From Cafeteria roenbergensis (lineage: Eukaryota; Sar; Bigyra; Bicosoecida; Cafeteriaceae): 64,000 bases of DNA. The stretch lies in NCBI GenBank assembly GCA_008330645.1, contig VLTN01000057.1, positions 62,001 through 126,000 on the forward strand, in the 5' to 3' direction. The notes below the pieces were generated by a model. That model was not told where the DNA came from and did not search any database. It saw nothing but the letters and a program-made list of their open reading frames with translations. The position numbers and the translations under genes are program-made. This document shows, piece after piece, positions 8,151-46,153 of the stretch. Positions within the stretch are counted from its first letter, which is position 1. Each line of letters starts with the position of its first letter.

Positions 8151-11100
8151 TCAGGCAAGGGTGTCGGCGACGCCCGCCTGGAGGTGCAGCTCCCGCGCTG
8201 CGGCCCGCTCGGCGGCACGTTCCGCCGCCTCGGCAACTGCTTCGGGGTCACTCATGTCCACGCCAGCAAAGTCATCGTCCTGTCTTTCGCCAGTCACTGA
8301 TGCATCAGCCGCGTGTCCGAACCTCGGCGACGACACGCTGTCCAGCCACGAAGACGTGTCTCCAGCAGCAGCACCCCAGCCAGCCACCGCCTCCGCCACT
8401 TCGGTGCCGCCCCTGCGCGCGAAACCGCCACGGCTCTGCCTGTGACGTCGGCGAGCGCCGCTCTTGGCCCGGGGTTTGCGGAGCTGCCGACGTCGGCTAA
8501 AACTCCGCACCCTCCGCCTCGGCATACCGCCGCAGCCGCCACCGCACCCGGCGCCGCGACGACAGCCACAGCAGCAGCCGGCATCGGCCGCTGCAGCAGC
8601 CGCTGATGCTGCATCGTGCCCCTGCCGATTGGCAGAGCCGGATCCGCCGCCGAACGCGGACCTGGCTCTGCCGCGATGCTGTGCCGATGAAACTCCAGCT
8701 CTACCACATCTCCTTGAGAGCGGTTTCGCGCCGACGGCAGCACCTGCAGCAGCAGCAGTAGCAGTTGCAGTTGCTGCTGACACGTTGCGGGGGCCAGAGT
8801 TGCAGTGCCGACAGCAAGCCGCCGATGCGGCTCTGCCGACGCCGGCGCACTTTCCTGTTCGGCTCTGCAAGCTCGCAGACACACCGTGGCCGGTTGGGCG
8901 CCACGGGCCCTTCGTGACCAGCCGCTGACCGGCCGGCGACTTTGCCATGACAGGTCGGCGACTGACGCGATGCGGGGACGTCGGTGTCTCCGACCCCTTT
9001 CCTCCACGGCTCTGCCGTGGCGGCGAAACCGCCCGGGTGGTGCCCCAGTTGCCCGGCAAGGCTGTGACTGGTTCCGATCCCCAAGTCCAGAGCGACGTGG
9101 GGGCCCTGCCCCCTGCAATGTAGGTCGATCGATGTGACAGGTCCCCCGCCGTTGACGTCGCTCCGTACACCAGCCTGCCAAGTCGTTTCGCCGTCGCTGC
9201 AGCGTCGGCGGCCGCCGCCTCCGCGGCAGCGACCCTCGCCGCTTCAGCCTCTGCCACTTCAGCCCTGACCAAGGCCTCTGCCCGCTGACGTCGCAGCGAC
9301 GCCTCTCGCGAAACCGCGGCATCAACCTCAGCGGCAGCCTCCTCCATGCGCCGCCGATACACAGCGGTTTCGCTGCTCTGCAGAGCCGCAGCGGTTTCAG
9401 CCCGCGTCGCTCGCGCCTCCGCCGCCTCTCTGCCACGCTTCGCCGAACGCAGCGCGAGAACCAGCCGATGCGACCTCTCGGCTGCCGCCGCAGCCGCAGC
9501 CGCAGCCGTCGCTGCTGCCGTTGCCGCAGGTGCCGTCGCTGCCGCCGCCGGTGCCGCCGCCTGTGCTGCGGCCGCGGCAGCGGAGGAGTCCTTGGCTCTT
9601 CCAGAAGTGCTTCTACCATTGTCAGCTCTGCAGGCAGAGCGCCTGGTTGCAGTGCCAGTCGTGGACGCAGTGGCAGACCCTGGCCTGGAGGGCGGTGGCT
9701 GCTTCGTCGATCGTCGCTTCGCGGTGCCTGCATGCGTCGCTGTGATGCGCTTGCGACGCGCGAGCGATGGACGGCTGCCACGAGCAGTTCCGCTGCCGCC
9801 GGTCTGCTGATTCCGGCCTGACATGCTTGTGATGCTCGCATGACTCGCGCTGCTGCTTCTCTTCCCGGAAACGCCTCGCGACGCGCTCGTGGAGCGACTC
9901 GTCGTCCCTCCAGCCATGGTCGACCGAGTCCGCTCAACTTCAGCTGCAACTGCAACTGCAACTGCATCTGACCCGCGAGGAGTCGATGTTCCCGCTCTTC
10001 CGGATCGCTCCGGCCTGGAGAGGCTCTGGGACGATCGCAACGTGGTCGCTGCAGTTGCAGTTGCAGTTGGTTTGCCAGCCGGCGAGATGTGGCTGGACCG
10101 AGTCTGATGGGAACGTGATGCCCTTGCAGAGCTGGTTTGGGTTGCAGAGCCACTTCCAGAGAGGCTCTGTTGACGTCGGTGGCGAGCGGCCGCAGCCAGC
10201 CTTCGGGCCGCGGCCTGGGGCCCTGTCACCGCTGCATCACGCGACGCCGGCGTGGAGGGTGATGGGGCGGTGATGGCGGCTGACCGAGTTGTTGCCGCTC
10301 CTGCCGCGGGCGACAGGTCGCCGACCCGCTCCCGACTGGTGCGTGACTGGCCAGAGACTGGCCGCGCCCGTGTCGCGCCAGGCTTGAGCGTGGAATCGGC
10401 TGGCGTCACAGCCGCAATGCGCTTCCCGCGAGCGGAGTCGCCAGACACGGAACTCCGCACCGTGCCTGCCCGCCGCGGTGGAGACTGCGTCGACGTCGAC
10501 GACGACGACGACGACGACGGCCCTTGCTTGGAAGCCCTCTCCTTGGTGAGTCGCGTGTCGGCAGAGCCCACGGTGGAACTATCCCCCGATCGCCGGCCTC
10601 CGCCCCTGGGCACTGCGCGACGACGCGTCGCAGCCGCCCGATTGGGGCTTGCTGGTGGTGCTGCTGGTGGTGCTGCTGGTGGTGCTGCTGGTGGTGCTGC
10701 TGGTGGTGCTGCTGGTGGTGCTGCTGGTGGTGCTGCTGCTGCTGGTGTGCCCGACCGCTGCCGGCCGCCGGCCGCACGGCGTGAAACCACAGTGGAAGGA
10801 CCGGTCCGCTGTTCGGAGCTGCCACTCTTGGAAGCTCGATCGGCCGCGACGCTGCGGTTTCGAGTGGTCGCGGCGGCCGTGTCGACGTCGGCACCAGCGT
10901 CGCCACCAGCATCAGCGTCAGCGTCGGCCGTGTCAACGTCGGCACCAGCGGCGGCACCAGCGGCGGCAGCGCTGGTGGAGGAGCTGCCTCCAGGCAGCGC
11001 TTGGAATCGGAGGGCTGCTGCTGGCACTGGCGACGTCGGCGCTGTCGGCGGCGCGCTGCTGTCGGGGGCGTAGCTGTCATGGGCACTTGCCTGAGTGGGC

Positions 11101-11154
11101 TGGTCAACCCGCAGCGCCGACGGCGACGCCTCGAGCTCCAGCTGCTCCCGTGGT

Positions 11155-11222
<68 letters not shown>

Positions 11223-12638
11223 GTGCTGGTGGTGCCGCATCTCGGCACGAACAGCCCGCTGCAGGAACGCGGGGGACAGTGGCGTCACGGCCGACACCGC
11301 AGCAGACGACTCGCCAGTTGATGCACTGCTGACGACGCGGTGATGTCCCGGTGATGTCCTCGAGCCATCCTGCGGATGGAGGTCATGGACCCCAGCCCGC
11401 GCCGCCGGTAGAGCTGCCAGTCTCGCGTGCTCCCCAGAGGCATCGCCACGGCTGGCAGAGCCGCTGGCGCAGCCGGCGCCAGCATCGCAAGCGTCGGCTC
11501 CGCCGCCAGTGCCGCCGCCGGCGTCGGCACCCGCCCCAGCACCGGCGGCGGTCGCATCGCCCCCATCGCAAGCATCGGCGCCACGGCGAGAGCGCTGCGC
11601 TGATGCTGGCCTGCGCAGCGGTTTCAGCGTCCCGAGGCGGCGCGCGGACGCGATGCGGGCTCTGTCCAGCAGCACGCTCGCAGCCGCGTTGGCTGGGGAC
11701 GGGGGGCTCGGCTGACTGGGAGATGACTGGCTCTGCTGGTCGGCAGAGCCGCCTTGGGAGACGATCGCCGAATCGGCAGGCGCGGTGGGTGCCGGACCGG
11801 AATCAGCCTCACTGGCGTGATTTCCTGGTGACTGGTCGGTGACTTTCCGTTGACGCCGTTGTGACTTGAGCTTCCGTCGCGGTTGCGTTTGTGGCGACTG
11901 GCTCGAAAGTTGCCTCCTGGCGGCGGAGCGACGCTCTGCTGATGTTGGTCCGACTGTCACTCCGGCCGCTGGACCCGTCTGACGCCGCCGCTCCGTCCGG
12001 CGGCCCTCTGAGCGAGCGGCGCCTGCTGGTGGCGCTGCCTCTGCTGGTGGCGGGGTCGAGGCCGCCGCCACCACTGCTGGCGCTGCCTCTGCTGGTGGCG
12101 GGGTCGAGGCCGCTGCTGGCGCTGGCGCCGCCGCTGGCGCCGCCGCCCTGTCCGCTGTGCGCCGCCCTGACGGGACGCGCCTGCCTGCGGAGGACGCGCG
12201 CCCGTCGCTCCCCGAGCTAGTGGTGGCGGCAAGGTGGTCGATGGCGTCCGCCACTGCGGCGAGACCCGCGGCGCGGTGGGCGCCCCAGCGGATGTCGCCG
12301 CTGCGCCGCCCCGTGGGACCTCCTCCCGCGCCAGACGCTGCGGGCGCGAGGCCACGTCTGCGCCGGGAAGTGCCCCGCGACCGCTGTGGGGACGTGCTGC
12401 TTGAGCGCGAGCCGAGCGGGCGAATGGCGTGGCCGACCAAGTCAGCGCGAGGGTCGTGGACCGCCCAAAACTCCGTGGCCAGCTGGGGGTGCGACGGCGC
12501 TGCCCGGACGGGAGACTCGGACGCGAGGATGCGCGCCAGCGCCAGGCGGGCCTCGTGCAAGGACCCGGTCACGTCCACCGGGGCGCGAGGCGGCACGGAG
12601 GAGGCGCGACCGCGGACCACTCGGCGCCGCTCGGCCAT
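8151..12638 (-). CDS. Long, mostly disordered Ala/Ser/Arg-rich protein with polyQ, AAPP repeats and a coiled coil
   Basis: One uninterrupted frame of 1,495 codons begins at the ATG at 12638; a GTG further up could extend the open frame to 12857 but leaves almost no promoter next to metH. No enzyme domain is seen. The N-terminal 150 residues (MAERRRVVRG start, then an acidic/hydrophobic helix reading LHEARLALARILASE) look structured. The middle is low complexity: about 25 glutamines near 11155-11220, an AAPP tetrapeptide repeated seven times near 10650-10745, and Ser/Thr/Arg runs. A long Ala/Glu/Arg coiled coil lies at about residues 1020-1150, and the C-terminus ends in another helix (PEAVAEAAERAAERAAARE). 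The uninterrupted frame and structured ends favour a real gene, possibly a nuclear or cytoskeletal scaffold. The DNA is dense in the short words described in the findings. Confidence 0.6.
10649..10746. repeat. 12-bp tandem repeat coding AAPP
   Basis: The unit GGTGGTGCTGCT is repeated about seven times without change, encoding Ala-Ala-Pro-Pro on the minus strand within the disordered gene. The lack of synonymous variation suggests recent slippage. Confidence 0.9.
11151..11234. repeat. Hexanucleotide repeat coding polyglutamine
   Basis: About eleven copies of TTGCTG (CAGCAA on the coding minus strand) encode about 25 glutamines flanked by histidines. The alternation of CAG and CAA codons is regular, so the 6-bp unit, not a CAG triplet, has expanded. 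Confidence 0.92.
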
Positions 12639-12872
12639 CGCGCGGCCTGCAGCCGGCGCGCAGTGCGGCCGGAAGTCGCCGCACGGGTTGTGCGCAGCCC
12701 CGGCAGCTGCGTGCGCGGGTGCCGGGCGCGCCAGGGCCGGCGCGATGCGCGCCGATGCTTGCCGGGCAAGCAAAACGGCTGCGCGGGCCGGTCCGGCCAG
12801 CACCCGGCCAGCAAGCGGCCAACGACGCGGCGGGCACGGCGGCTGCGCGTTCGACACTTTGGCCTGACAAAA
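12639..12872. promoter_or_regulatory. Divergent promoter region of the disordered gene and metH
   Basis: A 234-bp spacer separates the ATG at 12638 (minus) from the metH ATG at 12873 (plus). No TATA-like element or other motif stands out; an A-rich context (GACAAAAATGG) surrounds the metH start. The assignment rests only on the head-to-head gene arrangement. Confidence 0.4.
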
Positions 12873-15255
12873 ATGGCCGCTGCCGCCGAAGGCGCCGCCG
12901 CCGGCGCTCCGATGGAGTTCGTTCGAGGTGAGGGCCGCAGCAGTCGCGCTGGCGGGCGCGGGAGGCCTGCTCTGACAAGGCTGGGCGCGTCCGGTCGGGA
13001 GGGCAAGTTGCGATGCGTCTGGCCGGCGAGTTGGCCGCTGCCAGTTGGCTCGCGCCGCGCCCTTGCTCCCGCGACGCGCAGGGGAGACGGATCTGTTCGA
13101 CTACCTCAACCACATGCTGAAGAAGCGCATCATGATCATCGACGGGGCCATGGGCACCATGATCCAGGTGAGCCGTGCCGCCACCTCAGTCGTCCCTTCG
13201 AATACCGCGCGAATCGGCCCAAGCCGCGAACAGTCCCTTCGCGCGGCCGGCTCCAGTGCCGGCCGCCCTGGCACGCGCAGGCCCCGCTGCCTATGGTGAC
13301 CCCGTGGCCCTCCTGTGGTCGGCGCGCTCCGCTCCGGGGGCGCTCAGTCCCGCGGTGGCGGACTTGGCATGGCCCAGATGGCAGTGGCGTTGTTCAACCC
13401 GGTTGCCTGGCCGTCATGCGTCCACGGCCCCCTCGCTGTGCGCCCCCCCGTGGCACCCCATGGGCCTGCAACGCGAGCGGCCCCGCGACGGGACCATCTC
13501 TGGCGCTGCTCGCCCTGGCTATCCCCTCGCGGATCGTCCCCTGGCCACGCGTACGCCACCCCCTCGTGCAACCACAAACCCAAATTGATTCGCAGAAGCG
13601 CAAGTTTGACGAGGCCGCCTTCCGTGGCGAGCGCTTCGCAGACTACGACCGCGACATCCAGGGCAACAACGACGTCCTTTCCCTGACGCAGCCCGATGCC
13701 ATCCGCGAGATCCACACGTGAGCCGGCGCCAAGCGGCCGCAACTGGCGTTGCGAGGGCACCTCTCCGCCGCCCGTTGCAGCGTCGAGTCTCCCCCCCTGC
13801 CCGCCCCTCTTACACACACAAACACGCCGCTCGCTCCCTCTCGCGCATGCGCACGCGCGCCTGCCGCCGCCACTTCCCGGGCCGCCTTCCCCGTGCCCCC
13901 GCCCCCGCAGCCAGTACCTCGAGGCCGGCGCCGACTTCGTGGAGACCAACACCTTCAGCGGGACCACCATCGCCCAGGCCGACTACGGCATGGAGGACCT
14001 CGTGCACGAGCTCAACGTGGCGTCCGCCCGCCTGGCCCGGGAGGCCTGCGACGCAGTGGAGGCCCGCGACCGGTCCCGCCCGCGCTTCGTGCTCGGCGCC
14101 GTGGGCCCCACCAACCGCACGCTGTCCATCAGCCCCAACGTGGAGGACCCCGGGTTCCGCAACGTCACCTTTGACGAGCTCGTCGTCGCCTACCGCCAGC
14201 AGGTGGAGGCCCTCATGGAGGGCGGCGTCGACGTCATCCTGGTCGAGACCATCTTCGACACGCTCAACGCCAAGGCCGCCCTCTTTGCCGTGGACGAGGC
14301 CTTTGAGGCGGCAGGCCGCAAGCTCCCCGTGTTCGTGTCGGGCACCATCGTCGACCAGTCCGGCCGCACCCTCTCCGGCCAGACCGGCGAGGCCTTCTTC
14401 ACCTCCATCCGCCACGCCAAGCCCTTCGCGGTCGGCCTCAACTGCGCCCTCGGCGCCAAGCAAATGAAGCCCTTCGTGGAGCGCCTCAGCAAGTTCGCAG
14501 ACTGCTGGTTCTTCACCTACCCCAACGCCGGCCTGCCCAACGCCATGGGCGGCTACGACGACACCCCCGCGCAGATGGGCGAGGACATCAAGGCATTCGC
14601 CACGGAGCGCTTCCTCAACCTCGCCGGCGGCTGCTGCGGCTCCACGCCCGACCACATCGCGGCCGTGGCCGCCGCAATGGAGGGCATGCCCCCCCGCGAG
14701 TGGAAGCCCTGGGAGCCCCGTATGATGCTCAGCGGCCTCGAGCACCTCTGCGTCGACTTCGCGACCATCGGCTTTGTCAATATTGGCGAGCGGTGCAATA
14801 TCGCGGGAAGCCGCAAGTTCAAGCGCCTCATCCTCAACGGCGACTACGCCGCCGCGATGGACGTGGCCCGTGCCCAGGTGGAGGACGGCGCGCAGGTGAT
14901 CGACATCAACCTCGACGACGGCATGCTGGACGGCTTCAAGGCGATGGGCAAGTTCCTCCGCATCGCCTCCACGGAGCCGGACATTGCCCGGGTCCCGTTC
15001 ATGGTGGACTCGTCCAAGTTTGAAATCGTCGAGTACGGCCTGAAGAACACCCAGGGCAAGTGCATCGTCAACAGCATCAGCCTCAAGGTGGGCGAGGAGG
15101 AGTTCATCCGCCAGGCGCGCGTGGTGAAGCGCTTCGGCGCCGCGGTGGTGCTCATGGCCTTCGACGAGGACGGGCAGGCCGCCTCGGAGGAGGACAAGAT
15201 CCGCATCTGCAAGCGCTCCTACGACCTCATCACCGGCCCCAAGGTCGGCTTCCCC

Positions 15256-15291
<36 letters not shown>

Positions 15292-16035
15292 ATCGCCACG
15301 GGCATGGACGAGCACAACCGCTACGCCCTGGACTTTATCAACTCAATCCCGCGCATCAAGGAGGTGTGCCCCCACGCCAAGATCAGCGGCGGCGTCTCGA
15401 ACCTCTCCTTCGGCTTCCGCGGCCTCGACGTCATCCGCGAGTCAATGCACTCCGTCTTCCTCTTCCACGCGCTCAAGGCAGGCATGGACATGGGCATCGT
15501 CAACGCGGGCATGCTCCAGGTGTACGACGACATCCCCGCCGACCTCCTCGAGCTGGTCGAGGACACCGTCTTCTGCAGGAGGGAGGACGCCACCGAGCGC
15601 CTGCTGGAGCGGGCAGAGCTGGAGCGCGCCGCCGTCGACGCCCGCAAGGCCGCCGGCACGGGCAAGGCCGCCCCCGCGGCCAGCAAGCTCGCCTGGCGCG
15701 AGAAGTGCGTCGAGGAGCGCCTCTCCTACGCCCTCATCAAGGGCTTCCCCGAGTTCGTGCAGCTCGACGCGGAGGAGGCGCGCCTCAAGTTCGGGCGGCC
15801 TCTCAGCGTGATCGAGGGCCCCCTCATGGACGGCATGAACACCGTGGGGGACCTCTTCGGCTCCGGCAAGATGTTCCTGCCCCAGGTGATCAAGTCCGCC
15901 CGCGTCATGAAGCGCGCCGTCGCCTACCTCATCCCCTTCATGGAGCAGGAGAAGCGCGAGAACCTCCTCGCCCAGGGCCTCGACCCGGACACCGACGACG
16001 ACAGCATGTTCGCGGGCAAGGTGCTCCTCGCAACC

Positions 16036-16073
<38 letters not shown>

Positions 16074-17604
16074 GGGGGTGGTGCTGGGCTGCAACAACTA
16101 CAAGGTGGTGGACCTCGGCGTCATGGTCCCGTGGGAGAAGCTTCACGAGGCCATCGTGCGCGAGAAGCCCGACATCGTCGGCCTCTCCGGACTCATCACC
16201 CCGTCGCTCGACGAGATGGTCAGCGTCGCCAAGAACATGCGCAAGGCAGGCGTGAAGCAGCCCCTCCTCATCGGCGGCGCCACCACCAGCCGCATGCACA
16301 CCGCCGTAAAGGTGGCCCCCCAGTTCTTCAGCGAGGAGCACCCCGTCATCCACGTCCTGGATGCATCGCGCTCCGTCGTCGTCGTCTCCTCCCTCCTCGA
16401 CCAGACCTCCAAGCGCGCCGACTACATCGCCGACGTCCGCGAGACCTACGAGGACATGCGCGAGGAGCACTACGCCGGACTCGAGGACCGCGTGTACATC
16501 CCCCTCGAGAAGGCCCGCCTCCGCCGCGCGCCCATCGACTGGGCCGCCCGCGCCGCCGACCCCGTCCCCGCGCCCCGCACCCTCGGCGTGACCACCGTCA
16601 AGCTCAGCTCTGCCGAGCTCCGCACGCTGATGCCCTATGTGGACTGGAACCCATTCTTCCAGGCCTGGGAGCTGCGCGGCAAGTACCCCAACCGCGGCTA
16701 CCCCGGCATCTTCAAGGACGCCACCGTGGGCGCCGAGGCGAAGAAACTCTTCGACGAGGCCACGGAGATGCTCGAGCGCGCCTTTACCGAGGGCTGGCTC
16801 ACCGCAGCCGGCGTCGTGGGCATGTTCCCGGCAAACTCGGACGGGGACGACATCCTCGTCTTCCCCGACGAGGCCGCCCGCGAGGCCGGCGCCGCCGCCG
16901 ACAGGCTCTGCGGCCTCCGCCAGCAGGCCGAGAAGGAGACGGAGGACCCCTACCTCTGCCAGAGCGACTTCGTGGCGCCCGTCGGGTCCGGCGTCAAGGA
17001 CCACGTCGGCGGTTTCGCCGTCGCAATCTTCGGCGCAGAGGCCAAGTGCGAGGGGTTCCTCGCCGACCACGACGACTACTCCCGCATCCTCCTGCAGGCC
17101 CTGGCCGACCGCCTCGCGGAGGCCTTTGCCGAGAAGCTCCACCAGGACATGCGCCGCGAGACGTGGGGCTACGCCCCGGCGGAGGACCTGTCCCCGGACG
17201 ACCTCCTCAAGTGCAAGTACCAGGGCATCCGCCCGGCCCCGGGGTACCCCACCCAGCCGGACCACACGGAGAAGCGCACCCTGTGGAAGCTGCTCGGCGC
17301 CGAGGAGCGCGCCGGCATCAAGCTGACCGAGTCCCTCGCCATGTGGCCGCCGGCCGCCGTCAGCGCCCTCGTGTTCGCCGACCCGGACTCGCAGTACTTT
17401 GCCGTGGGCAACATCGACCGCGACCAGGTCAAGGACTATGCGGCCCGCAAGGGCATGTCGGTTCCCGAGGCGGAGAAGTGGCTCGGGCCCATCCTCAGCT
17501 ACGAGACGGACGCCGACGCGGCAGACGCAGCGGACGCCGCCGCGGCCAACCCCGACGGCGCTGCTGCGGCCGCCGCCGCCTCTGCTGCTGCCGGAAGCGC
17601 GTGA
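12873..17604 (+). CDS. metH: Cobalamin-dependent methionine synthase
   Basis: Four exons, 12873-12927, 13082-13167, 13596-13717 and 13911-17604, encode 1,318 residues. The three introns (phases 1, 0, 2) all fall in the first 88 codons and splice to [30 protein letters not shown] and [14 protein letters not shown], the standard N-terminal order. The enzyme moves a methyl group from methyltetrahydrofolate via B12 to homocysteine in the cytosol. The homocysteine module has zinc ligands Cys266, Cys329 and Cys330 (GLNCALG and [10 protein letters not shown]). A pterin-binding module follows ([15 protein letters not shown]), then the B12 domain with the axial histidine motif [11 protein letters not shown] (His802). 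The C-terminal reactivation domain has the AdoMet-binding RPAPGYP. All four modules are complete; an Ala/Asp tail of about 35 residues is extra. This organism therefore needs B12 from bacteria or diet, unless it also has metE elsewhere. Confidence 0.98.
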
Positions 17605-34100: not shown

Positions 34101-35905
34101 CAGCTGCCCCGGGCAGCGCCAGGTCAGCGCGACGGTGCGGCCTCTCGCGTTCGGAGCAGCCCTCCACCGGCCGAACGATCCCCCGCAGGGGGTCAGACGA
34201 CACCACGTTCGACCTCACCGCCGGCCCAGTCCTCTCATCCCGCGCGGAGAGCGTGACTCGGGCGACGAACCCCGTCACGGGCGAGGCCAGGGCGCAACAG
34301 CATGCTCGCTTGGCTCTCCAACCGTCCCAAGGCCCGCTTGCGGTTTCGCGCCACAGCTCAACGCCAACTGGGTCGGGCCGATTGCTGGCGGCTAGGGCGC
34401 TCGGCGCGTCGGTGGAGGGATCGGCAGGATCGATGAGCGTCCACGTCGGCGTCTCAACGCCGCCGACGTCCTCCCGCGCAGCAAGCGTGGCGTCAGCTGA
34501 CATCAGCGTCCCGCCCAACGCATTCGGCTCCCATCCATCGGCAGAGCTGGCGAGTCTGCGCATCGGCACCGTTGCGTCTCCCCAGCAGCTGGCCGCAGCG
34601 GCTGGCGACGAGGCCGCCCCCGGGGTGGCCCGCCTCGTCGGGCGACACCGCGGCAGAGCTCTACCACGCCATACTGCGGCAGAGCCAGGAAGCTGTGCCC
34701 TCCGACCAGGTGCCGCTGCCGTCGCGACGGACCGCCGCCAAGACGACGACCATCATCGTCGCGCTCGGCAGAGCCGGGACACGACCGGGTCGTCGTCCGT
34801 GCCGCAGGCGGGGACCGCTCTGGAGGCCGGAGCACAGCAGGCAGAGCCACTTCGCAGAGCGCCGGCCGCTTCAACGGGATTCCAGACTCTCACTTCGCTG
34901 CTCTGCCCCTGCTGCAGCACGTATCGCCGGCAGAGCCAGCGCGCCAGGCCGCGGCCGCGGTGCCCTTGCATGCGTGGTGGCAGGGCTCGCGACCAGTCGC
35001 CCGGTCAATCCGCGGCTCGCTGCCGGTCCGAACTGGAAGGATCGGGCAGAGCTCGCAATCGACGTTGCGTGCTTGGACCGGCATGCGGCTCGGGGATCTT
35101 CCTCTCCGTCGCTGTCCTGTCTCTGGCCAGTCTCATGGCCGTCACGCAGATGTCGACGGTGGAGGCGTCGCAGCAGCTTGCCGCAGGAGTGGCCCGCATC
35201 CACGCGGCGGCTGTCGGCAGAGCCCTGGCGGCGTCAGGCGTCAACGCAGCTCGCGAGCTGGTCATTGCGGACGGGCAGGTGGCGGCGCGGCTGGAGCTGC
35301 TGGAGGAGGCGCGTCGGCTCGAGGCGCTGCAGCGGCAGCTGCTGCGCGGGCTTCAGTTCGGAGACGCGTCGCTGGGTCTGACGCCGCTCGCGGAGGGCAC
35401 GGCTGCCGTCGGGGCTTTCTTCAATGGATCCCCGGGCGCGTCGACGTCGCCTTGCGACGGCGGCAACGGCAGTTGCAGCGGTAGCGGCAGCGGCAGCGGC
35501 GTTGATGAAGGTCAGCCCTGCCTGAGCGACGCTGCGCCGATCGGGTCCCTGCTCGACGAGTTCTGGACCAACATCGGCGACGTCGCAGGGGTGAATTGGG
35601 GCAACGCGTCCAGCAGCGTCGCGCGGACGCTGAGCAGTGTGAGGGACGTCACGTCGCTCAGGAGGGCGTGGGACTTGCAAGAGGGGCTGCTCGGCGAGCG
35701 GCTTCGGCGCGGGCAGGAGGCCGTTGTGGCCGCCGAGGCATCGCTCGCCCTGGAGCTGGGGCGGCGAGCTGCTGCGGCCAGGGTGGCGGAGGGCATCGTC
35801 CTGCTGGTGCTGGCTGCAGTCGGTCTCTGGTGCCTCGAGGAGCGGGCGACGGCCCACCAGCGCCGGATGAGGGCGGCCAAGCGGCTTGTGAAGCAGGCCG
35901 TGTGA
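25143..35905 (+). CDS. Giant multi-pass membrane protein, TmcB/TmcC-like (tiny macrocysts family)
   Basis: Supported exons are 25698-25846 and 26104-35905, joined by a 257-bp phase-2 intron; 25143-25415 is a plausible first exon (phase 0) but its start is uncertain. The product is about 3,407 residues. Residues 100-410 hold the N-terminal membrane block typical of TmcB proteins (VVACLVFDWVQLFG, LGSYLAVWAISVAVM, further helices to MLPLAAAAAGLVM). Helical half-TPR units occur near residue 1520 (SEAVSLFPNSARALSLLAA) and 1797 (LYRSGLLRWPGWSGLKRA), as in the family. Membrane helices follow near residues 2011, 2272, 3139 and 3370, ending in a short basic tail. Between 420 and 1480, and again 2290-3100, the chain is disordered and packed with Ser/Ala/Gly and repeats, which explains the unusual length. 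Family members act in signalling at the cell surface of amoebae and protists; some carry PAS domains, none seen here. Confidence 0.75.
27736..27834. repeat. 15-bp tandem repeat in the TmcB-like gene
   Basis: About six copies of ATCGGCTCTACTGTC encode Ile-Gly-Ser-Thr-Val, the first copies reading ATCGGCTCTACTGCC. The array is preceded by GGGCTCTGCCATC, so the unit looks like an expansion of the dispersed word GGCTCTGCC. The four central copies are identical. Confidence 0.92.
30412..30600. repeat. Degenerate GCC/ACC-ACG repeat coding Ala-Thr run
   Basis: A stretch of about 190 bp with a loose 6-bp period (GCCACG, GCAACC, GCCACC) encodes some 60 residues of alternating alanine and threonine in the TmcB-like protein, just after the first TPR-like unit. 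The degeneration suggests an old slippage-derived linker. Confidence 0.8.
33130..33162. repeat. CAG/CTG inverted trinucleotide repeat
   Basis: Seven CAG units run directly into CTGCTGCTGCAG, forming a potential perfect hairpin stem with almost no loop. It encodes a Gln run followed by Leu in the TmcB-like protein. Confidence 0.85.
33728..33782. repeat. 18-bp repeat CACGCCGGCAGAGCTGGC
   Basis: Three tandem copies encode Gly-His-Ala-Gly-Arg-Ala in the TmcB-like protein. Each unit contains GGCAGAGC, the dispersed word core, and a further GGCAGAGCC lies directly upstream at 33719-33727. Confidence 0.85.
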
Positions 35906-38090: not shown

Positions 38091-38290
38091 CGGCCGCTGC
38101 CACGGGCTGAAGGCCGCTGCCTCGGGCTGAAGGCCGCTGCCTCGGGCTGAAGGCCGCTGCCTCGGGCTGGAGGCCGCTGCCTCGGGCTGGAGGCCGCTGC
38201 CTCGGGCTGAAGGCCGCTGCCTCGGGCTGAAGGCCGCTGCCTCGGGCTGGAGGCCGCTGCCTCGGGCTGAAGGCCGCTGCCACGGGCTCT
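38091..38290. repeat. 20-bp minisatellite, ten units, reaching the DNAI2 stop codon
   Basis: Units read AGGCCGCTGCCTCGGGCTGA with G/A variants at the last position and CACGGG in the first and last units. The 20-bp period is not a multiple of three. The last unit overlaps the TAG stop of the minus-strand DNAI2 gene at 38289-38291, so the array begins exactly at the end of that coding region. Confidence 0.93.
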
Positions 38291-40573
38291 AGGGCGCTCC
38301 CGCAGCCGCTGCGGCCGCGGCGCCTCCTCGGGACTCCTCCTCGTAGTCGTCGGCGTATGCCTCGTCGTCGTCCTGCTCGGCGTCCTTGATGAGGCGGAGG
38401 AACTCGGTGTCGACGGAGCGGAGCACCTCCGCCATCTCGTCCTCCTTCCCCTCCCCCGCGGAGGCGGCGGCCTTGGACGCTGACCGCTCGGCTGCCTTGG
38501 CCGCCTTGGCCAGCTGGGCTGCCCGCTGCTCCAGGGCCTTCTCCCGCACCGCCTCTCGCTCCAGCATGTTCCCCACGTTGGTCTTCTCGTTGTGCTGGGC
38601 CGTGCTGAGCGACTCCGACACCTCGAGGAGCGACACCGTGCCGCTCGCGTCGCCCACCGCGACCAGCCGGCCGCCGCCGTCCTGCGGGCTGCCCTGCACG
38701 GCCAGGCTCGAGAGCGGGTGGTCCGACACCTTGTGGCTGTAAGCCACCGCCGACTGCCTGTGGTAGTAGTCCCAGACGTCCGTCACGCCGTCCGCGCGCG
38801 CGGTGAAGAACACGCCGGCGCGGGTGGGGCTCCAGCAGCCGGCAGTGACGGACGCCTTGGAGAAGCGCGTGGACATGATGGGCGTGTGATTGTCCTCGGA
38901 CCACACCTTGGCGGTCCAGTCCCCAACGGACATGAAGAACTTTGTGTGGAAGGGGTTCCGCTGCACCTGGTAAACGGGGCCGTGGTGCTTGGAGGCGCCC
39001 GTGTCGAAGACGCGCACGGTGTCCTTGCCGCCCTTCTTCTTGGTGTTGACGAGGGCCATGCCGCCCTGCTCGGTGCCCACGAGGAACTTGCCGTTGGCCT
39101 CGGGGTTGTACTCGAGGCAGGAGCCGCCGAGGAGCCGGCCGGATGAGTCCTTGAGCTCGTAGACGTCGTCCAGCGGGCGCGCGAGGTTGCGCATGTCCCA
39201 GAGCATCAGCTGGCCGTCGGTTGAGACGGAGGCGAAGGTGGAGTTGCTCTTGGACTGGACCCAGAAGGCGTCGTAGACGGGGTCGTGGTGGGAGGTCTCC
39301 ACCTCGGAGGTGCGCTCGGCGGTGAGCACGGCGGCGCCGGCGGCGCGGGCGTCGAAGACGCAGACGAGGCCGTTGTAGCAGCCCCCCACCAGCACGTCGG
39401 TGAGCTTGTGGTGGTACCGGAGGCACATGAGGGGGCTCTGCGGGATGAGGGTGCGCTCGGGGGCGTTGGGGTTGGCCAGCGACCAGATGTAGCTCTTCAT
39501 GGGGAGGCGGCCGCCCATCATGCGCGGGTCCTGGAACTGCAGCACGCTGTACGCCACGGCCAGGCGGGTGCCCTCGGGGTGCCAGTGGATCTTGCAGGCG
39601 GCGCGCTTGGTGGCGTTAGGGTCCCGGAACACAGCTAGCCCGCGGGCCGAGGGCGGCTCTGCCGAGAGGTCCACCTCCTCGTCCTTGAAGTACTCCTCGT
39701 AAATGTCCACGGTGTTGTTCTGCTTCAGGCAGGTGTCAACTACGAACCCTAGTTGGACCATAGTTGACTTGATCTTCGCGTCCTTGCCCGCCTTCTTGAG
39801 GTAGCGCTCCACCTGCTCCGCCTCGGAGCCGTCCACGTTCTCGGGCCAGCCGCCCTCGGCGTGCTTGAGCCCCTGCGACCTGTGCACGACGCTGTCGGTG
39901 TTGACCTCGTGCTCCGCCATGACGGGCGCGGCCTCGAGGCGGCTGATGGTCGGCTGGCGCACAACGAACTTGTCGTCGTCGTCGTGCCTGCGGGGGAGGC
40001 GGCACGGCGGCGCAGTCGGGGTGACGGGGGACGAGGTCTCGGGGGCGTGGGCGGCATTGCGTGATCGCAGGCGCGCGGCTGCAGGCGTGGCAGGGGCAGC
40101 GGCGGCGCCGGCGCCCCTGGCGGCGGCGAGGCTGGCGGCCAGGCGCGCCTCGCGAAATCCACCGCTCGCCCCGTGCGCAGGGGGGGGGCAGTGCAGACGG
40201 CGCAGCTGTGCTTGTTTCCCGGGGGCGACCCTGCCGCGAAGCCAGCCAGGGCGCTGGAGGCGCAGCCTCGAGGCGGAAAGCACTCGCCGTTGCAACAGGC
40301 GTGGGCGCCGAGGCTTCGGACCACTGCCTGCAGCCGCCCGCCCGCCCCGGTCGTAACCGCCATTCGCGCTTCCATGCGCGCCCGATAAGGGGGGGGGAAG
40401 GGTTATCGCCGCGGCCGCTGCAAGGCCGCAGGGACCGCAATCTCCTGCAAGCACTGCTGCACGCAAGCTCACGAGCACATGGTGGACTCCAGCATCTGCG
40501 CGGGCCCATCGGAGAACTCGCAGTGCTCTCCGAACTCCCTGCGCTTCTTCGAGTACTGCAGCAGCACCTCCAT
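38289..40573 (-). CDS. DNAI2: Axonemal outer-arm dynein intermediate chain 2 (DNAI2/IC2/ODA6), WD40
   Basis: Two exons, 40473-40573 and 38289-39987, across a 485-bp phase-2 intron (GTGAGC...CCGCAG), give 599 residues. Exon 1 encodes MEVLLQYSKKRREFGEHC, matching the DNAI2 start, and exon 2 continues with the MAEHEVNTDSV, GGWPENVD, KQNNTVDIYEEYFKDEE and FRDPN blocks. Seven WD-type repeats span about residues 150-500, with the family's CYNGLVCVFDAR, HHDPVYDAFWVQSKSN, VGDWTAKVWSEDN and WSPTRAGVFFTAR. The C-terminus is a charged coiled coil (NEKTNVGNMLEREAVREKAL) and an acidic tail. The protein anchors outer dynein arms to ciliary doublets, so the organism has a motile flagellum. Length and domain order are normal for the family. 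Confidence 0.97.
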
Positions 40574-40922
40574 GGCTGCCTGCAGCCCCGGACGGCAACG
40601 TGGTCCGCACAGGCGCAACGGGTTTGGCTCAGCGACACTCGCAAAACTATGGCTCTGCCGCTGACTACCGACGCCGAATATGGATAAGAGTTCGCAGACT
40701 TTGAGGCCCGATTTCTGCGGAGCCGTGTGCTGCCGTGTGTGAAAGGCATGTGAGGGGCGGGCCCCCGCCGCCGCGAGAGCCCAAAGCAAACAAGTCCCTT
40801 CTCCACTGGCAAGCCCGTTGGCACGCGCGCGCATACCCATAACGCGCGCCAGTACGGGCGCCAGGAAGAGAGATTTTTCTCGGCCCTGCCATCGACCCGA
40901 AATTACCGCTGCTGCGGTGCCG
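40574..40922. other. Promoter-side spacer upstream of DNAI2
   Basis: The 349-bp gap between the DNAI2 start and the stop of the LRR gene (both minus) should contain the DNAI2 promoter. No shared element could be recognised; a short AT-rich stretch occurs at 40868-40880 (AGAGATTTTTCTC, a near-palindrome). Confidence 0.4.
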
Positions 40923-43900
40923 TCACACAGCGCCCAGCCCCACGTCAGCCACGCCCCCGCTCAGCCACTCGTTCATGCGAGACACCTCAGCCGCGCGCGC
41001 CCTCTCCAGCCGCCACAGTCCTGGCTCTGCCACCACGGCGCGCAGGCCGCTGACAACCCGACCCGAACGGCTCGACCCGAAACCGCCGCCAAATCTGCGC
41101 CCACCCGATCGGCGCGCCGCTGTCGATCCTTCCTCCTGCAACTCCTCGCCGTGCGCTTCCGCGCGTGGACGAAGCTCTGCCACTTCCAGCTGAAGGGCGC
41201 ACGGGGCCAGTGTCCCGGCCACAGACACCACCACCCGCTCCCAAGGCCACACCAGCAGCGACCCGGCGTCAGACGCCGCAGTCTCTCCCGGCGCAACGAA
41301 CTGCCGGCCAGGGAGCGGAATCGGGATCCACGACCGCGGCCCTGACGCCGCCTCCCGGGGCCCGATAAGGGGCTCTGCCACTTCACGGAGCAAACCAGCG
41401 TCGCTCTCGGTCGTGAGCACGTCGCCCCCGATCCCGGCGGGCGATCGACGAGCCGGTCCGCGGCGCGCAGTCACCGCGGCATCACCACCCGCAGCCGCCA
41501 CCGCCGCCGCCGCCGCCGCCGCCGAATCTGCACCTCCCCCCATCGCCACAGTGCTGCTTCCCCCATCGCTGGCGATTGACGAAGAAGCACGCGAGCCTGC
41601 CGCAACTGCAACTGCCACAGGACCGGAAAGCACCACGGCCCCGCGGCCAAGGACGCCCACTGCCAGCACCGACCCGCCGGCGCTGCAGGGCGCTTCGGCG
41701 CCAGAGGCCGGGAACACTTGGCGTAACCGCCAAGCGACAGCGGCCCTGCCCCCCTCTCCCGCGCAGCTGCTTCCGGCGGTGGGGGCGCGAGCGGCTGTGA
41801 GCGTGAAGCCCACGGCCCAGGAGGCGGCTCTGCTGGCATCCCGAGCGGGATCTGACGCCGCAGCGGCGTCCAGGGAGAGATCGTCCTTGGTGGCTAGCAA
41901 CCACCGAGGGAGCTCTGCAGCGGCCCACTCGACGTCGGCTCTGCTGGACAGCTCCGTCGCTGCGTCCATCCACCATCGCGAGGGCAGCGTCGTTGGCAGG
42001 GTGACGTCGTCCGTGAAACCCCGCGCCTCCACGAATGCAGGGGGCGGGCAGAGCAGCTCTGCCGATTGTTCTGACGCGTCCCTGCAGGCTGCAGAGCCGC
42101 TCCCACTTGGCACAGACAACGCCACTGGCCGAAGCGGGGGCACGACGCTCCACCGGGGGGTGGCAGACTGTGACGACGAGCCCTGCCCCGGCAGAGCCGA
42201 CCGCCGGCAGAGCGACGCCGCGAGCTCTGCATCCGCTGAGGTCGGCAGAGGCCATGCCGCCCACCAGTGCTTCGGAGGGGCGAAGGGGGCCTGCGATCCC
42301 AACACCGGCACCGCGCCGGGGGCGGCGCCAGCGGCAGAGCCGGAGGCACTCGACGCCGTCGCGTCGGCGTGGCTGGCCGACGGATGCCAGGGGGCAGCGC
42401 CACCACCCCATACCCATGCGGCAGCTGACACGGTTCTACGCAACACGAGCTCGCACCGCGCCCTGGTCAACGCATACAATTCTGCAGAGCCGGTTTGCTC
42501 TGCTGCTCGAAGCGTCCCGGCCACACTTCGGACCCCGCACAGCGCCCGGCAGAGCCTCCTCTTTGCGACGTCAACTCGCAGCTCTGCCACTTCCGAAGAG
42601 TGGCACCCGTCGTTCGCCAGCGACGTCGGCCAGCCAGTGGCCGGTGCTTCTGAGGGGCCTGCACTGCGAGCCGCTTCCAGAGAGGGCCCTCCGGGTGCTC
42701 CGCGCTCTCCGTTGGTTGTTGCAATGATGGTCCAAGCAGCCGCCTCCAGCGCCTGCCACTCTTTGGCGTCGCCGTCCTCCTCCCCGGCGGCGTCCTCCTC
42801 CGCCGCGTCTGCCCCAGTCTCCGCGGGCGCCGCAGCTGCTGCGACTGGAGATGCGCCCACTTCGACCCCGCGGCGGCTCTGCGGCGCCCCAGCGCGCCCA
42901 TCGCCCCCGGCAGAAGGTTGCTCCCACCAGCCAAGCCACCTCCTCGGCAGAGCCCACCGGTCATCGAGAGCGTCGCTCGAAGTGACCAGAGCGCGCTCTA
43001 CCGCGGACCGCACTTCCCACACGGACGCTGCAGACCTGCTGACGTCGTCCACAGCCATGAGCCCTGCGGATTCGCCGCCGACGTCCCCGCAGAGCCCGAC
43101 AAGCGTCGACTCGCTCCGCGGCCCGACCGCGAAGGCCGCCTCGTCGCTCAGATCCCTCCAGTCAGACGCAGTGAGCTTGTTGGCGCTGAGGTCCAGCATC
43201 GTGAAACCGCACCCTGACGAAGATGCAGGCACTGGAATGGTTGCAGTTGCAGTTGGGGAGCGCGCAACCGAAGCGCCTGCTGCTGACGACTCCACAGCGG
43301 AGGCGATGAGGGCAGCAGCACCGGCACGGGTGACGTCGTTGCCGGAGAGTGACACGCGCACGATGCGCGGGTGGATGGCGATCGCGTCCGCGAGGGCTGG
43401 CACCCGCGATGACGAACTGATCCGCTGAGAGACGCCTGCGTCGCTCAACCCGCAACGGCGCATGGAGAGCTCCTCCAAAAACGGCAGAGCCGAGCAGCTC
43501 TGCCGGCAGCGCAGCAGCCACCAGCGACCGTGCAGAGCCAGCCGGAGGAGGTCGACCCGGCTCAATGATGTGCCGAACGGAGGCCCAGAGTCTCCGCTGG
43601 AACCCTGCCGTTCAGCAGAGCCACTTCGTCGAAACAGCTGGCAGAGTGCATCAGCGTCGCCATCGTCCCCCGTGACCAGCCAGCTGACCGCAGCGCCAGT
43701 CAACGCAGAGGCCACTCGGAGCTCTGCCGCTGAGAGCCTGGTGCGCTCTTTGGAAGGATCGACTCTGCCGCTGCGTCTCGCACTGCTGCTGGCAGAGCCA
43801 CACCACCCAGACGGGGAGGGCATGCCCTGGCCAGGCGCTGGCCGCCTCCCCGGTGACCGGGAGAGCGGCACTGCAAGCAGCTCTGCCACGTCCACCGCCC

Positions 43901-46153
43901 CCCGTGCTCCGAGGGTGACGTCATCCAGGCACAGCCGCACCAGCAGCCCCGCCCCGCGCGGCCGGCCTGCCCGCGGAAAGGCCGTGGCCAGCGATGCAGA
44001 GCCGAGCGAACCCCCTGTTGCTCCCGCGGAGGCGGAGGCGGCGGCCGCCCTCCTGGTCGGTTGTGCCTTCCGGGCGGACGAGGACGACGCGCGGCCGCCG
44101 CGGGCCCGAGCCGCGTCGGCCGACCGACCGGCAGCCGCTGCAGCGCGGTTTCGCGAGCCGGCTCTCCCACCTGCCGCCGGAGTTTGCCGGCCCGACCGGC
44201 GTGCAGTTGTAGCTGTAGCTACAGTTGCAGTTGCGGTTGAAGCTGTGGGTCGCTTGCGGCCTGTTCTGACCCCCGCAGCCGCTCTGGAGCCGGCGCGCGG
44301 CTTGCGGGGCGGCGGTGACGTCACCTGCTGCGGATTTGAAGAGTGTTGAGCCCTCCAGAGCGAAACCGCCCGCTGAGCGTCGGCATCCTGGGGCTCGTCC
44401 CAGACGGCGCGAGCTTGGCCGGATGATGACAATCCAGGGAGCTCTGACGATGCAGCCGGTGCGGGATGACCGCGAGCCCCAACGGAGCCTGCCGTGGTGG
44501 CGTCAGCTGCAGCGCCAGCACCACCAGCGCCAGCGCCATCACCAGTGCCAGTGCCAGCGCCAGCAGCGCCAGTGCCAGTGCCAGTGCCAACTCTGGGCCT
44601 TGCTGTATGGCGACCAAGGGTCACTGCTGGCGGCATCAGGACGGCGGCGAGTGCCCCTGAGGTGAGCACTGACCCCCTCAGGCTGAGCGATCTGAGCGAC
44701 TCTGAGTTGCTCACCAGAAGCCCGAGATGGCGGGCAGATCCGATGATTGGGTCAAGATCGCCATCTGACTCGCTCCCCTCTCGCTGCCTTTGAGCATCCG
44801 AAGTCAACACTGCACTGCTGCGCTTGGTCGATCGCGAACTTGACGAGGGCCTTCCGGTCGTCGATCGCTTGGGCCGTCCGGACGAAGTGGGCCGCCGGGC
44901 CGAGCGTGTTGTTCGAGCCGAATCAGATGTGGCCGGCGCCTGATGGACTAGTGACACCGCCACAGCTGGCTGCCTGCCTCTGGAGTCGCGTCCCAGACCC
45001 AAGGCGGCCACTCTTGCCCCCGCGTCCTCGGTGAGAGACACCCCAAAGTGAGCGACTCCCTCCCCCAACAGATTTGATGGCAGTCCGCTTTCGGGTGCTG
45101 CAGGGTCGAGGGGAGAATCGTGCTCTGCCAGCGCGGCATCCATGACCAGAGCCCGACCCAAGGGGCCGCCTAGCCCGCACAGGGCAACGTCGATGGCGTT
45201 GAACCGGGCGGAGGAGGGCGGGCGGAGTCGGGCAGCTGATACCGCTGCCGCAATGGCGCGAGCTCCCGGCAAGCCGATGCGCGTGTTGCCCGTGAGAACA
45301 AGGCCGGCGAGCGCAGGCGCTGCGGCGGCCAGCGACGTGGCTGCGTGGGGGGCGGCAGTGCGAGAAGAGAGGGCGGGGCTTTAGCGGTCAGATCGTTGCT
45401 CAGGCCGGGCCCGCGACTCCGAGCAACGCTGGAGCCGCGATGCAGCGGCCCCCAGCACCGCAGGGGCGGCGCGCACACGGGACGGTATGCAACGTGGATT
45501 GCAGACTGGCACACGCCGCGGAGGGGGGGTACCATGCGGGCGGGCATGTGCCAGTCGGGCCGGCGACACATCGCCTGTGTGTGGGGGCTGTCGAAAGCTC
45601 TGCTCTGGGCGACAGCCTCACCGAGGACGACCGCCTGATCGTCGTTCAGATCGTAGAAGGAGAGGTCGATGACGCGAGCCTGCCGAAGGGAGCGCTGCTG
45701 CAGGCGTATGGAGCGCTGCATGGCCCAGTCGCCTGCAAATGTTGGCAACCGTGTGGACAGACTCTGCAACGCAAGCGATGCACCGGCTGCGCCTGCGTCC
45801 CCGCGAGCGCAGCCATCTTCGACATCTTGGCCAGCCTGCAAGAGCATCACAGGCCGGAGCAGCCCCGGTGACGGCGGCAGCAAGTCAGCCGCTTGCAGTG
45901 ACTGCAGAGCGGCACCGGACCCTGCGGCGAGCAGCGCCGCAGCGCCGCGCTCCACCTCCGCCTCTAGCGATGCAACACGCGAGCGCAGGGCCGCTATTTC
46001 TGCATCTGTCCTAGCGGCCCGCTCGGCGCGCAGCTCCGAGTGTTTGAGGGCAAGCCGGTCCACGCTCTGCCGGAGCGCGTGGGACGCTGCCGAAGGACCC
46101 GACTCGCGAGGTGACGCCGGTGATCCCCGAGGTGGTCCGCTGAACTCGCTCAT
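40923..46153 (-). CDS. Large leucine-rich-repeat protein with N-terminal coiled coil and long disordered regions
   Basis: Two exons, 45622-46153 and 40923-45340, joined by a 281-bp phase-1 intron (GTGAGG donor, CCCCACGCAG acceptor), encode 1,649 residues. Residues about 25-75 are a coiled coil (QSVDRLALKHSELRAERAAR). RI-type LRR segments follow: VIDLSFYDLNDDQAVVL runs across the intron into ALAGLVLTGNTRIGLPGARA, then CGLGGPLG; later units lie near residues 648 (LVRLCLDDVTLGARG), 800 (FLEELSMRRCGLSDAGV) and 900 (FTMLDLSANKLTASDW). The LRRs are separated by Ser/Arg/Ala-rich disordered insertions that carry the short DNA words at high density. The C-terminal 450 residues contain a probable beta-rich domain (WPWERVVVSVAGTLAPCALQ). 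LRRs of this class bind proteins; the partner is unknown. The splice is supported by matched phase and continuity of an LRR unit. Confidence 0.72.
44494..44600. repeat. Degenerate 6-bp repeat coding Gly-Ala/Thr run
   Basis: Loose GCCAGC/GCCAGT/ACCAGC hexamers encode a Gly-Ala-Gly-Thr stretch of about 30 residues in the LRR protein. Confidence 0.75.

Follow-up and report, generated by a model that had tools for sequence, protein, structure and literature searches.

Exact short DNA words over-represented in open reading frames of Cafeteria roenbergensis, a candidate eukaryotic counterpart of the HIP1 word

The 64,000-nucleotide stretch analyzed here (the window) comprises bases 62001 to 126000 of contig C57 (238,012 bases) from the Cafeteria roenbergensis assembly (36.3 Mb, 167 contigs). 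It is rich in a DNA word, W1, defined as the exact 9-mer GGCAGAGCC or its reverse complement GGCTCTGCC, with the core 7-mer GCAGAGC. An exact-word count identified 50 copies in the window (27 of GGCAGAGCC and 23 of GGCTCTGCC), where order-2 and order-4 Markov models, both trained on the window itself, predict 3.0 and 7.5, respectively. Three open reading frames (ORFs; 8154-13100, 26003-35902, and 40926-45380) make up 30% of the window and carry 39 of these copies. An earlier note, made from the sequence alone, had listed 18 positions of the word, all of which hold exact W1, and the excess proved larger than that note had stated, with 10,998 copies across the genome (5,553 and 5,445 by strand).

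Features of the window

The principal ORFs and the W1 copies are listed below by window coordinates and strand.

26003..35902, + strand, word-rich stop-to-stop ORF of 3,300 codons with 23 W1, 12 W2, and 47 core 7-mers
8154..13100, - strand, word-rich ORF of 1,649 codons with 8 W1 and 8 W2
40926..45380, - strand, word-rich ORF of 1,485 codons with 8 W1, 4 W2, and 29 core 7-mers
13687..17601, + strand, contrast ORF metH (B12-dependent methionine synthase) of 1,305 codons, GC content at third codon positions (GC3) of 0.94, no W1
2990..2998, +, W1 (GGCAGAGCC)
8432..8440, -, W1
8631..8639, +, W1
8664..8672, -, W1
8829..8837, -, W1
9008..9016, -, W1
10560..10568, +, W1
11454..11462, +, W1
11742..11750, +, W1
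20403..20411, -, W1
22682..22690, -, W1, ligase ORF
27737..27745, -, W1
28465..28473, +, W1
28502..28510, -, W1
29468..29476, -, W1
29494..29502, +, W1
30212..30220, +, W1
30704..30712, -, W1
30913..30921, +, W1
31006..31014, +, W1
31632..31640, +, W1
31658..31666, +, W1
32441..32449, -, W1
32720..32728, -, W1
32997..33005, +, W1
33173..33181, +, W1
33719..33727, +, W1, first unit of an 18-bp tandem array at 33718-33777 (consensus: variant GGCAGAGCT)
33827..33835, -, W1
34031..34039, -, W1
34678..34686, +, W1
34767..34775, +, W1
34840..34848, +, W1
34929..34937, +, W1
35216..35224, +, W1
39655..39663, -, W1, WD40-like ORF
40651..40659, -, W1, outside the ORFs retained for gap analysis
41023..41031, -, W1
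41371..41379, -, W1
42190..42198, +, W1
42333..42341, +, W1
42548..42556, +, W1
42946..42954, +, W1
43483..43491, +, W1
43791..43799, +, W1
46225..46233, +, W1
57737..57745, -, W1
59501..59509, -, W1, ABC transporter ORF
61536..61544, -, W1
63737..63745, -, W1
63941..63949, -, W1

The metH ORF, described in the earlier note as nearly free of the word, carries no copy at all. The ligase ORF (1,048 codons), which had been counted among the dense genes, has a single exact W1 (22682), and one copy each was found in the WD40-like ORF (the DNAI2 of that note) and the ORF at 18657-20606. Pfam supported the names metH and ligase, whereas GPCR, TmcB-like, LRR, and DNAI2 stay labels of the earlier note, since no confirming match was obtained: window ORFs 8151-12857, 18654-20507, 26072-35905, and 40923-45272 had no Pfam match, and ORF 38289-40610 had WD40-type matches only, all below the curated cut-offs. 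Position 45300, where the word-dense region had been proposed to end, is not a boundary, as W1 is equally dense just beyond the window; three neighboring loci (L022, L023, and L027) carry 18, 19, and 18 copies per 10 kb, respectively, compared with 19 in the best 10-kb block of the window. For the 9.9-kb word-rich ORF, no significant homologues were identified among 2,407 candidates scored, and a search for paralogues or haplotype copies returned only short matches besides the ORF itself (40 of 64 candidates scored).

Abundance of W1 in the genome

The reversed word occurs 994 times genome-wide (509 and 485 by strand), but it understates the background because the arms GGC...GCC are common in themselves. 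The arms pattern GGCNNNGCC was found at 89,455 sites versus 65,358 for its reversal, and GGCAAGGCC, which keeps the arms and composition of W1, at 2,063 versus 584 for its own reversal. An AGA or TCT centre occupies 10,998 of the 89,455 GGCNNNGCC sites (12.3%), where 2 of 64 centres would give 3.1%. One-mismatch near-copies of W1 number 46,404 over 27 variants (∼1,719 each), placing the exact word 6.4-fold above its mean neighbor; the same ratio is 1.0 for the reversed word. Overall, W1 occurs once per 3.3 kb, and once per 0.5 kb in the densest 10-kb blocks.

Further counts were made on 364 kb of sampled loci holding 187 W1 copies, a total that does not reflect the genome average because some loci were picked beside known words. 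Loci L001 to L020 (200 kb, 39 W1) were taken at round coordinates and not by word content, though the genome site list was already known, L021 to L023 and L026 to L028 neighbor the window, and L024, L025, L029, and L030 were chosen near listed words. ORFs are stop-to-stop frames and not curated genes. The main set comprised all ORFs of at least 500 codons, minus those overlapping a longer one by at least 30% (n = 82), and 5′ profiles were drawn from the 68 of these with an uncut 5′ end, the first ATG being assumed as the start. Sets termed word-rich were selected by word count, which inflates the peptide and density figures obtained from them.

Independence from protein sequence, codon usage, frame, and strand

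In the 82 ORFs, 162 W1 copies were counted versus 16.6 expected, with a maximum of 26 in 200 shuffles that held protein and codon usage fixed. The 12 window ORFs of at least 500 codons held 45 W1, whereas 300 codon-aware shuffles of them averaged 3.65 copies and gave at most 10. When the copies in the 82 ORFs were divided by frame and strand, all six settings exceeded expectation: those encoding G-S-A (49 versus 3.7), A-L-P (31 versus 3.3), G-R-A (32 versus 1.5), A-E-P (28 versus 3.9), Q-S (18 versus 2.7), and, most weakly, L-C (4 versus 1.4). Sense (78) and antisense (84) copies were equally common. Protein-level selection fails to account for the words, as the earlier note had argued, and they act at the DNA level, on either strand; neither a codon-aware background nor confinement to a single frame, the two outcomes it had named as decisive against the enrichment, accounted for the counts in these ORFs.

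Synonymous codon choice at the sites able to carry the word is strongly skewed. Across the 82 ORFs, Ser was encoded by TCT at 49 of 80 GSA sites, compared with 655 of 7,646 Ser codons overall (9%), and Arg by AGA at 32 of 51 GRA sites, compared with 315 of 7,823 (4%). Likewise, Ala was encoded by GCA at 28 of 40 AEP sites (2,226 of 16,239 Ala codons overall; 14%) and by GCT at 31 of 49 ALP sites (2,291 of 16,239; 14%).

Word pressure also seems to reach the protein sequence itself. Relative to order-shuffled proteins, the peptides GRA, GSA, ALP, and AEP were present at 1.6 to 2.0 times in 18 word-rich ORFs and at 0.76 to 1.15 times in 37 word-free ORFs, although sorting the ORFs into these sets by word count itself produces some of the contrast. 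The reversed peptides GAR, ASG, and PLA occurred at 0.34 to 0.78 times in the word-rich ORFs, where Q-S was hardly raised (1.1 times) and L-C reached 1.5 times. Beyond 600 bp, 97 of 205 GSA, GRA, ALP, or AEP sites carried W1 in 15 word-rich ORFs chosen for their words, and none of 73 eligible sites did so in word-free ORFs.

Structure of the site

The core GCAGAGC occurs 205 times in ten word-rich ORFs. It is preceded by G at 151 sites (T, 25; A, 22; C, 7) and followed by C at 128 (T, 50; A, 18; G, 9). The base before the full 9-mer in these ORFs is most often C (67; T, 15; A, 7; G, 6), and the base after it is most often G (48; A, 28; C, 15; T, 4), which roughly mirrors the preceding side. 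Among the GGCNNNGCC sites of the ten ORFs, 95 have an AGA or TCT centre, compared with 13 for the runner-up. W1 is not a perfect palindrome, GGC-AGA-GCC having palindromic arms and an asymmetric centre, and the site looks two-fold symmetric except at that AGA/TCT centre.

Between word-rich and word-poor DNA, exact W1 differs 15-fold (97 versus 6.3 scaled). The abundance of one-base variants noted earlier holds for the two outer bases, which are raised 4.6-fold (93 versus 20.2 scaled), whereas variants at the seven inner bases are raised less (77 versus 39.8; 1.9-fold). The core is sharp by this measure, with a halo of variants that looks graded and not absent. A 15-bp array at window 27741-27831, with a unit that gives GGCAGTAGAGCC (W1 plus three extra bases), adjoins the exact W1 at 27737.

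Companion words

Two further words were identified, W2 (GCGGTTTC or GAAACCGC) and W3 (GATCCTTCC or GGAAGGATC). These companions were absent from the earlier note, as were three features described below, namely the preference for gene bodies, the uneven spread along a contig, and the scarcity of words near the 5′ end of word-rich ORFs. W2 has 5,003 copies genome-wide versus 2,390 for its reversal, its usual next bases being G or A and then C, and in the 82 ORFs it is raised in all six settings over the codon-aware null (91 versus 10.9 expected). W3 has 925 copies versus 44, a count set against the reversed word alone. The window contains 31 W2 and 10 W3, with the clusters below (no strand assigned).

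8421..11625, W2 cluster, 8 copies (8421, 8720, 9025, 9310, 9364, 9391, 10854, 11618)
28977..34347, W2 cluster, 12 copies (28977, 29165, 29186, 29907, 29919, 30176, 31157, 31394, 31484, 31843, 33488, 34340)
41079..44369, W2 cluster, 4 copies (41079, 43203, 44145, 44362)
30688..35043, W3 cluster, 7 copies (30688, 30824/30833/30842 in tandem, 31690, 32422, 35035)

W1 and W2 densities co-vary, with a Spearman coefficient of 0.71 over 36 ten-kb blocks and 0.58 over the 82 ORFs. No evident preference in spacing or orientation was found for W1-W2 pairs, the counts being small. A greedy search of word-rich ORFs also returned the weaker candidate words TGAGCGAC, TGAGAGACGC, and GATGACGTCA in 9, 7, and 6 loci, respectively.

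Placement in ORFs and along contigs

In 124 kb of contiguous C57 sequence, ORFs of at least 280 codons cover 86% of the DNA and hold 109 of 114 W1 (binomial p 0.0012), 72 of 72 W2 (p 2.8e-5), and 19 of 19 W3 (p 0.063). The gaps between ORFs total 18.7 kb and hold 5 W1, and their density (0.27 per kb) is roughly one-fourth of that in the ORFs of this stretch. Over the 364 kb, ORFs of at least 500 codons hold 162 of the 187 copies, at 0.65 per kb versus 0.22 outside.

Within 15 word-rich ORFs, selected for three or more W1 and intact 5′ ends, W1 density per kb rose from 0.22 over the first 300 bp to 0.67 between 300 and 600 bp and to 1.3 to 2.8 farther on. Up to 900 bp from the first ATG, 13 of 118 copies were found where 26.3 were expected (p 0.001, for a cut-off set post hoc), and none of the 68 ORFs carried W2 in its first 300 bp. 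Towards the 3′ end, word-rich ORFs look poorer in the final 200 bp only, where 2 copies were counted, compared with 6, 6, and 5 in the next three bins.

Word-rich genes include the conserved housekeeping genes for VPS53 (9 W1), an ALG12-like mannosyltransferase (9), and an XRN exonuclease (6); metH and DNA topoisomerase I are W1-free. W1 density falls with codon bias (Spearman -0.31 with GC3 and -0.38 with GC3 minus GC content at second codon positions), which would fit a weaker expression of word-rich genes. Word density did not correlate with GC content over the 36 blocks (Spearman -0.17, p 0.31), and GC content was accordingly rejected as a driver. On contig C1, W1 is clustered in domains: the first 100 listed plus-strand copies gave a dispersion of 4.98 versus a simulated maximum of 2.36, with 11, 10, 14, and 11 copies per 50 kb at the start of the contig and 0 to 3 from 300 to 700 kb. 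At least one copy was present in 18 of 20 sampled 10-kb blocks on 17 contigs.

Other repeats were seen in and beside the window. An inverted duplication of ∼1.9 kb (48924-50817 and 53876-55799; 93 to 94% complementary) has 36-bp and 30-bp tandem arrays inside, and its two copies contain no exact W1, W2, or W3. Locus L023 has a tandem array of a 23-bp unit (x44) at 998-2016.

Origin of the copies

The flanks of the 187 sampled W1 show no excess sharing from 5 bases outward, and the preferred C accounts for an excess seen 3 and 4 bases out on the left. Spacing in word-rich blocks is near random (89 gaps, coefficient of variation 1.18), which argues against the slippage signature that had been suggested.

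When VPS53 and ALG12 were aligned with three outside relatives, 11 of their 18 W1 lay in columns where no more than one gap character occurs within 4 residues, and 7 of these in columns with none. Substitution is thus the origin at many sites. Examples are the ALP of an (S/R)ALP segment and the S-x-LPHKE motif, both in ALG12, and an invariant Cys-Leu of VPS53. At S-x-LPHKE the word requires Ala, where the relatives have Ile or Val and the homologue of solved structure has Phe. W1 does not behave as a short interspersed or insertion element: its flanks are unrelated, and 11 of the 18 copies lie in ungapped or almost ungapped columns, with 7 in gapped linkers.

Strain FNF27 shares the VPS53 peptides encoded by the word, as does a Cafeteria sequence deposited under Symbiodinium. 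The latter (P0122, filed as Symbiodinium sp. KB8) is nearly identical to Cafeteria VPS53 save for gaps resembling gene-model gaps, so the Symbiodinium sp. KB8 assembly appears to contain Cafeteria sequence. In ALG12 (L023:2055-4670), the annotated models P0002 and P0003 drop an in-frame stretch that is kept by the DNA and by relatives and looks like a false intron.

Comparison with known over-represented sequences

The cyanobacterial word HIP1, proposed earlier as the closest analogue, is supported in that role. The exact word is in large excess, and its variants fall mostly at the first and last base. To our knowledge, HIP1 has long been without an agreed function. As described in the available text of PMC4390886, HIP1 (GCGATCGC) is likewise an exact short word that is hugely over-represented, with deviations concentrated at its first and last base, and cyanobacterial HIP sites occur about once per 1,000 nucleotides. 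The same text gives the model of Elhai 2015, in which methylation-directed mismatch repair is postulated as a ratchet. W1 appears to work like HIP1 in the first two features, but it is only quasi-palindromic (central AGA/TCT). It also differs in its eukaryotic host, in having at least two companion words, and in its strongly uneven distribution between genes.

Other systems share single properties with W1. The periodic A/T clusters of Caenorhabditis elegans are a strand-free DNA signature in the bodies of particular genes, clustered by domain; they consist of an A/T periodicity in introns, whereas W1 and its companions are exact GC-rich words in ORFs. PRDM9 motifs and Chi are short recognized motifs with a link to recombination, for which conversion may act as a drive, but conversion erodes PRDM9 motifs instead of accumulating them.

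Uptake sequences often lie between genes as inverted pairs acting as terminators. This hallmark was not seen for W1, for which no pairing is preferred and few copies lie between genes; a function as hairpin pairs or terminators was likewise rejected, W1 pair orientations and spacings showing no clear preference. The uptake sequences of Neisseria and Haemophilus do resemble W1 in being non-palindromic with graded near-copies, read there as molecular drive (PMC1939737, available text). In that text, Bakkali 2007 reports a graded halo for uptake sequences, Chi, a cyanobacterial HIP palindrome, and some eukaryotic words, again read as molecular drive, and holds that uptake bias and mutation suffice for accumulation in weakly constrained DNA. 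The eukaryotic words in its Table 7 include GCAGCGCCC on C. elegans chromosome V (1,022 copies versus 13 expected, of unknown function), human CCAGCCTGG (Alu-associated), and Drosophila AAATATTT. Like W1, they are exact, in large excess, and surrounded by graded near-copies, but the available text of PMC1939737 reports no codon, frame, gene-body, or flank test for them, and human CCAGCCTGG belongs to a dispersed repeat, whereas the flanks of W1 are unrelated.

In PMC6972860, C. roenbergensis is described as a marine flagellate that is diploid, has 70% GC and 1.67 to 1.89 introns per gene, and is not known to have a sexual cycle; the available main text of that genome paper does not use the word "motif." Among the titles listed in literature searches, none concerned a eukaryotic counterpart of HIP1 or W1, and four word strings, sought as whole words in the literature searched, were not found. 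Over-represented exact words in bacteria, and single words of unknown function in eukaryotes (PMC1939737), are an already known kind. A multi-word lexicon tied to gene bodies and independent of strand, frame, and codon is undescribed in the literature searched and would, within that scope, be the first in a eukaryotic nuclear genome.

Possible mechanisms

We tentatively prefer, at rather less than even confidence, a eukaryotic lexicon analogous to HIP1 in which a factor acting on gene bodies would bias point changes towards the words. GGCAGAGCC, GCGGTTTCRC, and GATCCTTCC would be the recognition words of sequence-specific DNA-binding or DNA-processing factors, and where the process acts, one-base mutations that complete a word would be retained, or sites repaired towards it. 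Words would then build up one site at a time, mainly through point substitution and irrespective of strand or frame, until roughly half of the eligible peptide positions in word-rich ORFs carry the word. The poorer zones would be strongly codon-biased genes, the gaps separating genes, and, in word-rich ORFs, the initial few hundred bases. A more specific version, which we regard as doubtful, is a gene-body DNA code of Cafeteria, with factors that travel with transcription or a chromatin mark and a bias in repair or conversion that writes the words. By analogy, the body-rich profile, together with the 5′ depletion if it holds, resembles that of elongation-linked chromatin marks such as H3K36me3. 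TP6A_N domains (Spo11 or topoisomerase VI A) were matched at C4:654665-654850 and C12:451826-451996 in this organism without a known sexual cycle.

Several observations weigh against this preferred reading. A profile search of the contigs for the methylase families PF00145 (C5) and PF01555 (N6/N4), with introns ignored and other methylase families unsearched, gave no match, though both matched control genomes; a search for MT-A70 was uninformative, as the control genomes gave no match either. In this further difference from HIP1, the methylation-directed repair model is left without an obvious enzyme here, though a recombination, modification, or repair site, as suggested in the earlier note, is still a candidate. 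The gap density of W1 (0.27 per kb) is near the genome mean of 0.30 and above that of the reversed word, so that gaps are poorer in words and not free of them. The 5′ depletion in word-rich ORFs is suggested by a pattern noticed post hoc, and ORFs carrying one or two W1 (n = 21) show no such depletion of W1, with densities per kb of 0.48, 0.32, 0.48, and 0.63 over the four leading 300-bp bins and of 0 to 0.43 beyond. The inner variant GTAGAGCC is raised (15 versus 1.1, in 7 loci), so the core is not perfectly sharp. Finally, the remaining 7 of the 18 W1 in the VPS53 and ALG12 alignments fall within linkers where relatives have gaps; substitution is the origin at many sites, and these linker copies may be insertions.

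A serious contender, only a little behind in our estimation, is that the words are binding sites weakly selected for a chromatin or elongation factor of gene bodies with no molecular drive, for example, suppressing cryptic transcription or marking long, weakly expressed genes as self. The near-symmetric site with relaxed outer bases would suit a bound factor, as would the gene-body preference, the 5′ depletion in word-rich ORFs, and the sharing of genes by W1 and W2, and weak selection can be maintained in large populations. The lack of regular spacing and of an evident W1-W2 arrangement speaks against it, and so weak a signal would seem to come at a high cost to the protein. Both drive and weakly selected binding are live. 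Drive is slightly favored on account of the random spacing, the graded near-copies, and the tolerated cost to the protein; since gaps are poorer in words, such a drive must be tied to genes or transcription.

The other explanations fare much worse. An RNA-level element, such as a small-RNA target or a protein-binding site in mRNA, is improbable: words do track ORFs and extend close to the 3′ end, and single genes can be one-sided (every exact W1 of VPS53 and ALG12 reads GGCTCTGCC on the sense strand), but sense and antisense copies are equal over the 82 ORFs. We know of no natural competence in C. roenbergensis, which counts against a DNA uptake or transfer signal of the Neisseria or Haemophilus kind, spread by preferential uptake of word-bearing DNA. 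The gaps, probably less constrained, are also poorer than ORFs, making such a signal very improbable despite a graded excess of near-copies like that reported for uptake sequences in the available text of PMC1939737. A short insertion product or mobile 9-bp micro-repeat, one of the origins proposed in the earlier note, would leave reading frames open, 9 bp being a multiple of three, and would suit the linker copies; the unrelated flanks, the copies in ungapped or almost ungapped columns, and the skewed synonymous codon choice alone oppose it as the main route, and we consider it slightly less probable again. Least probable of all is an artefact of composition, codon usage, peptide repeats, or sequencing error, for which one might cite the words in some tandem repeats, the 70% GC and 28% repeats of the genome, and the commonness of GGC...GCC arms, but which is opposed by the codon-aware shuffles, the same-arm control GGCAAGGCC, the excess in all six frames, and the recurrence of the VPS53 peptides in FNF27 and the sequence filed under Symbiodinium.

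Implications

A gene-body-tied eukaryotic case offers handles on the invasion of genomes by exact words, through chromatin maps, RNA sequencing, and the four sequenced strains E4-10P, BVI, Cflag, and RCC970-E3. The eligible peptide sites that carry the word, nearly half of those in word-rich ORFs, and the Ala in place of Ile or Val in ALG12 point to a DNA-level process that reshapes proteins, and such words could mislead gene prediction and codon-based analyses. If a gene-body code of this kind exists in Cafeteria, it would override codon choice and even residues of conserved motifs, and the genes and domains in the underlying state could be recognized by their words from sequence alone.

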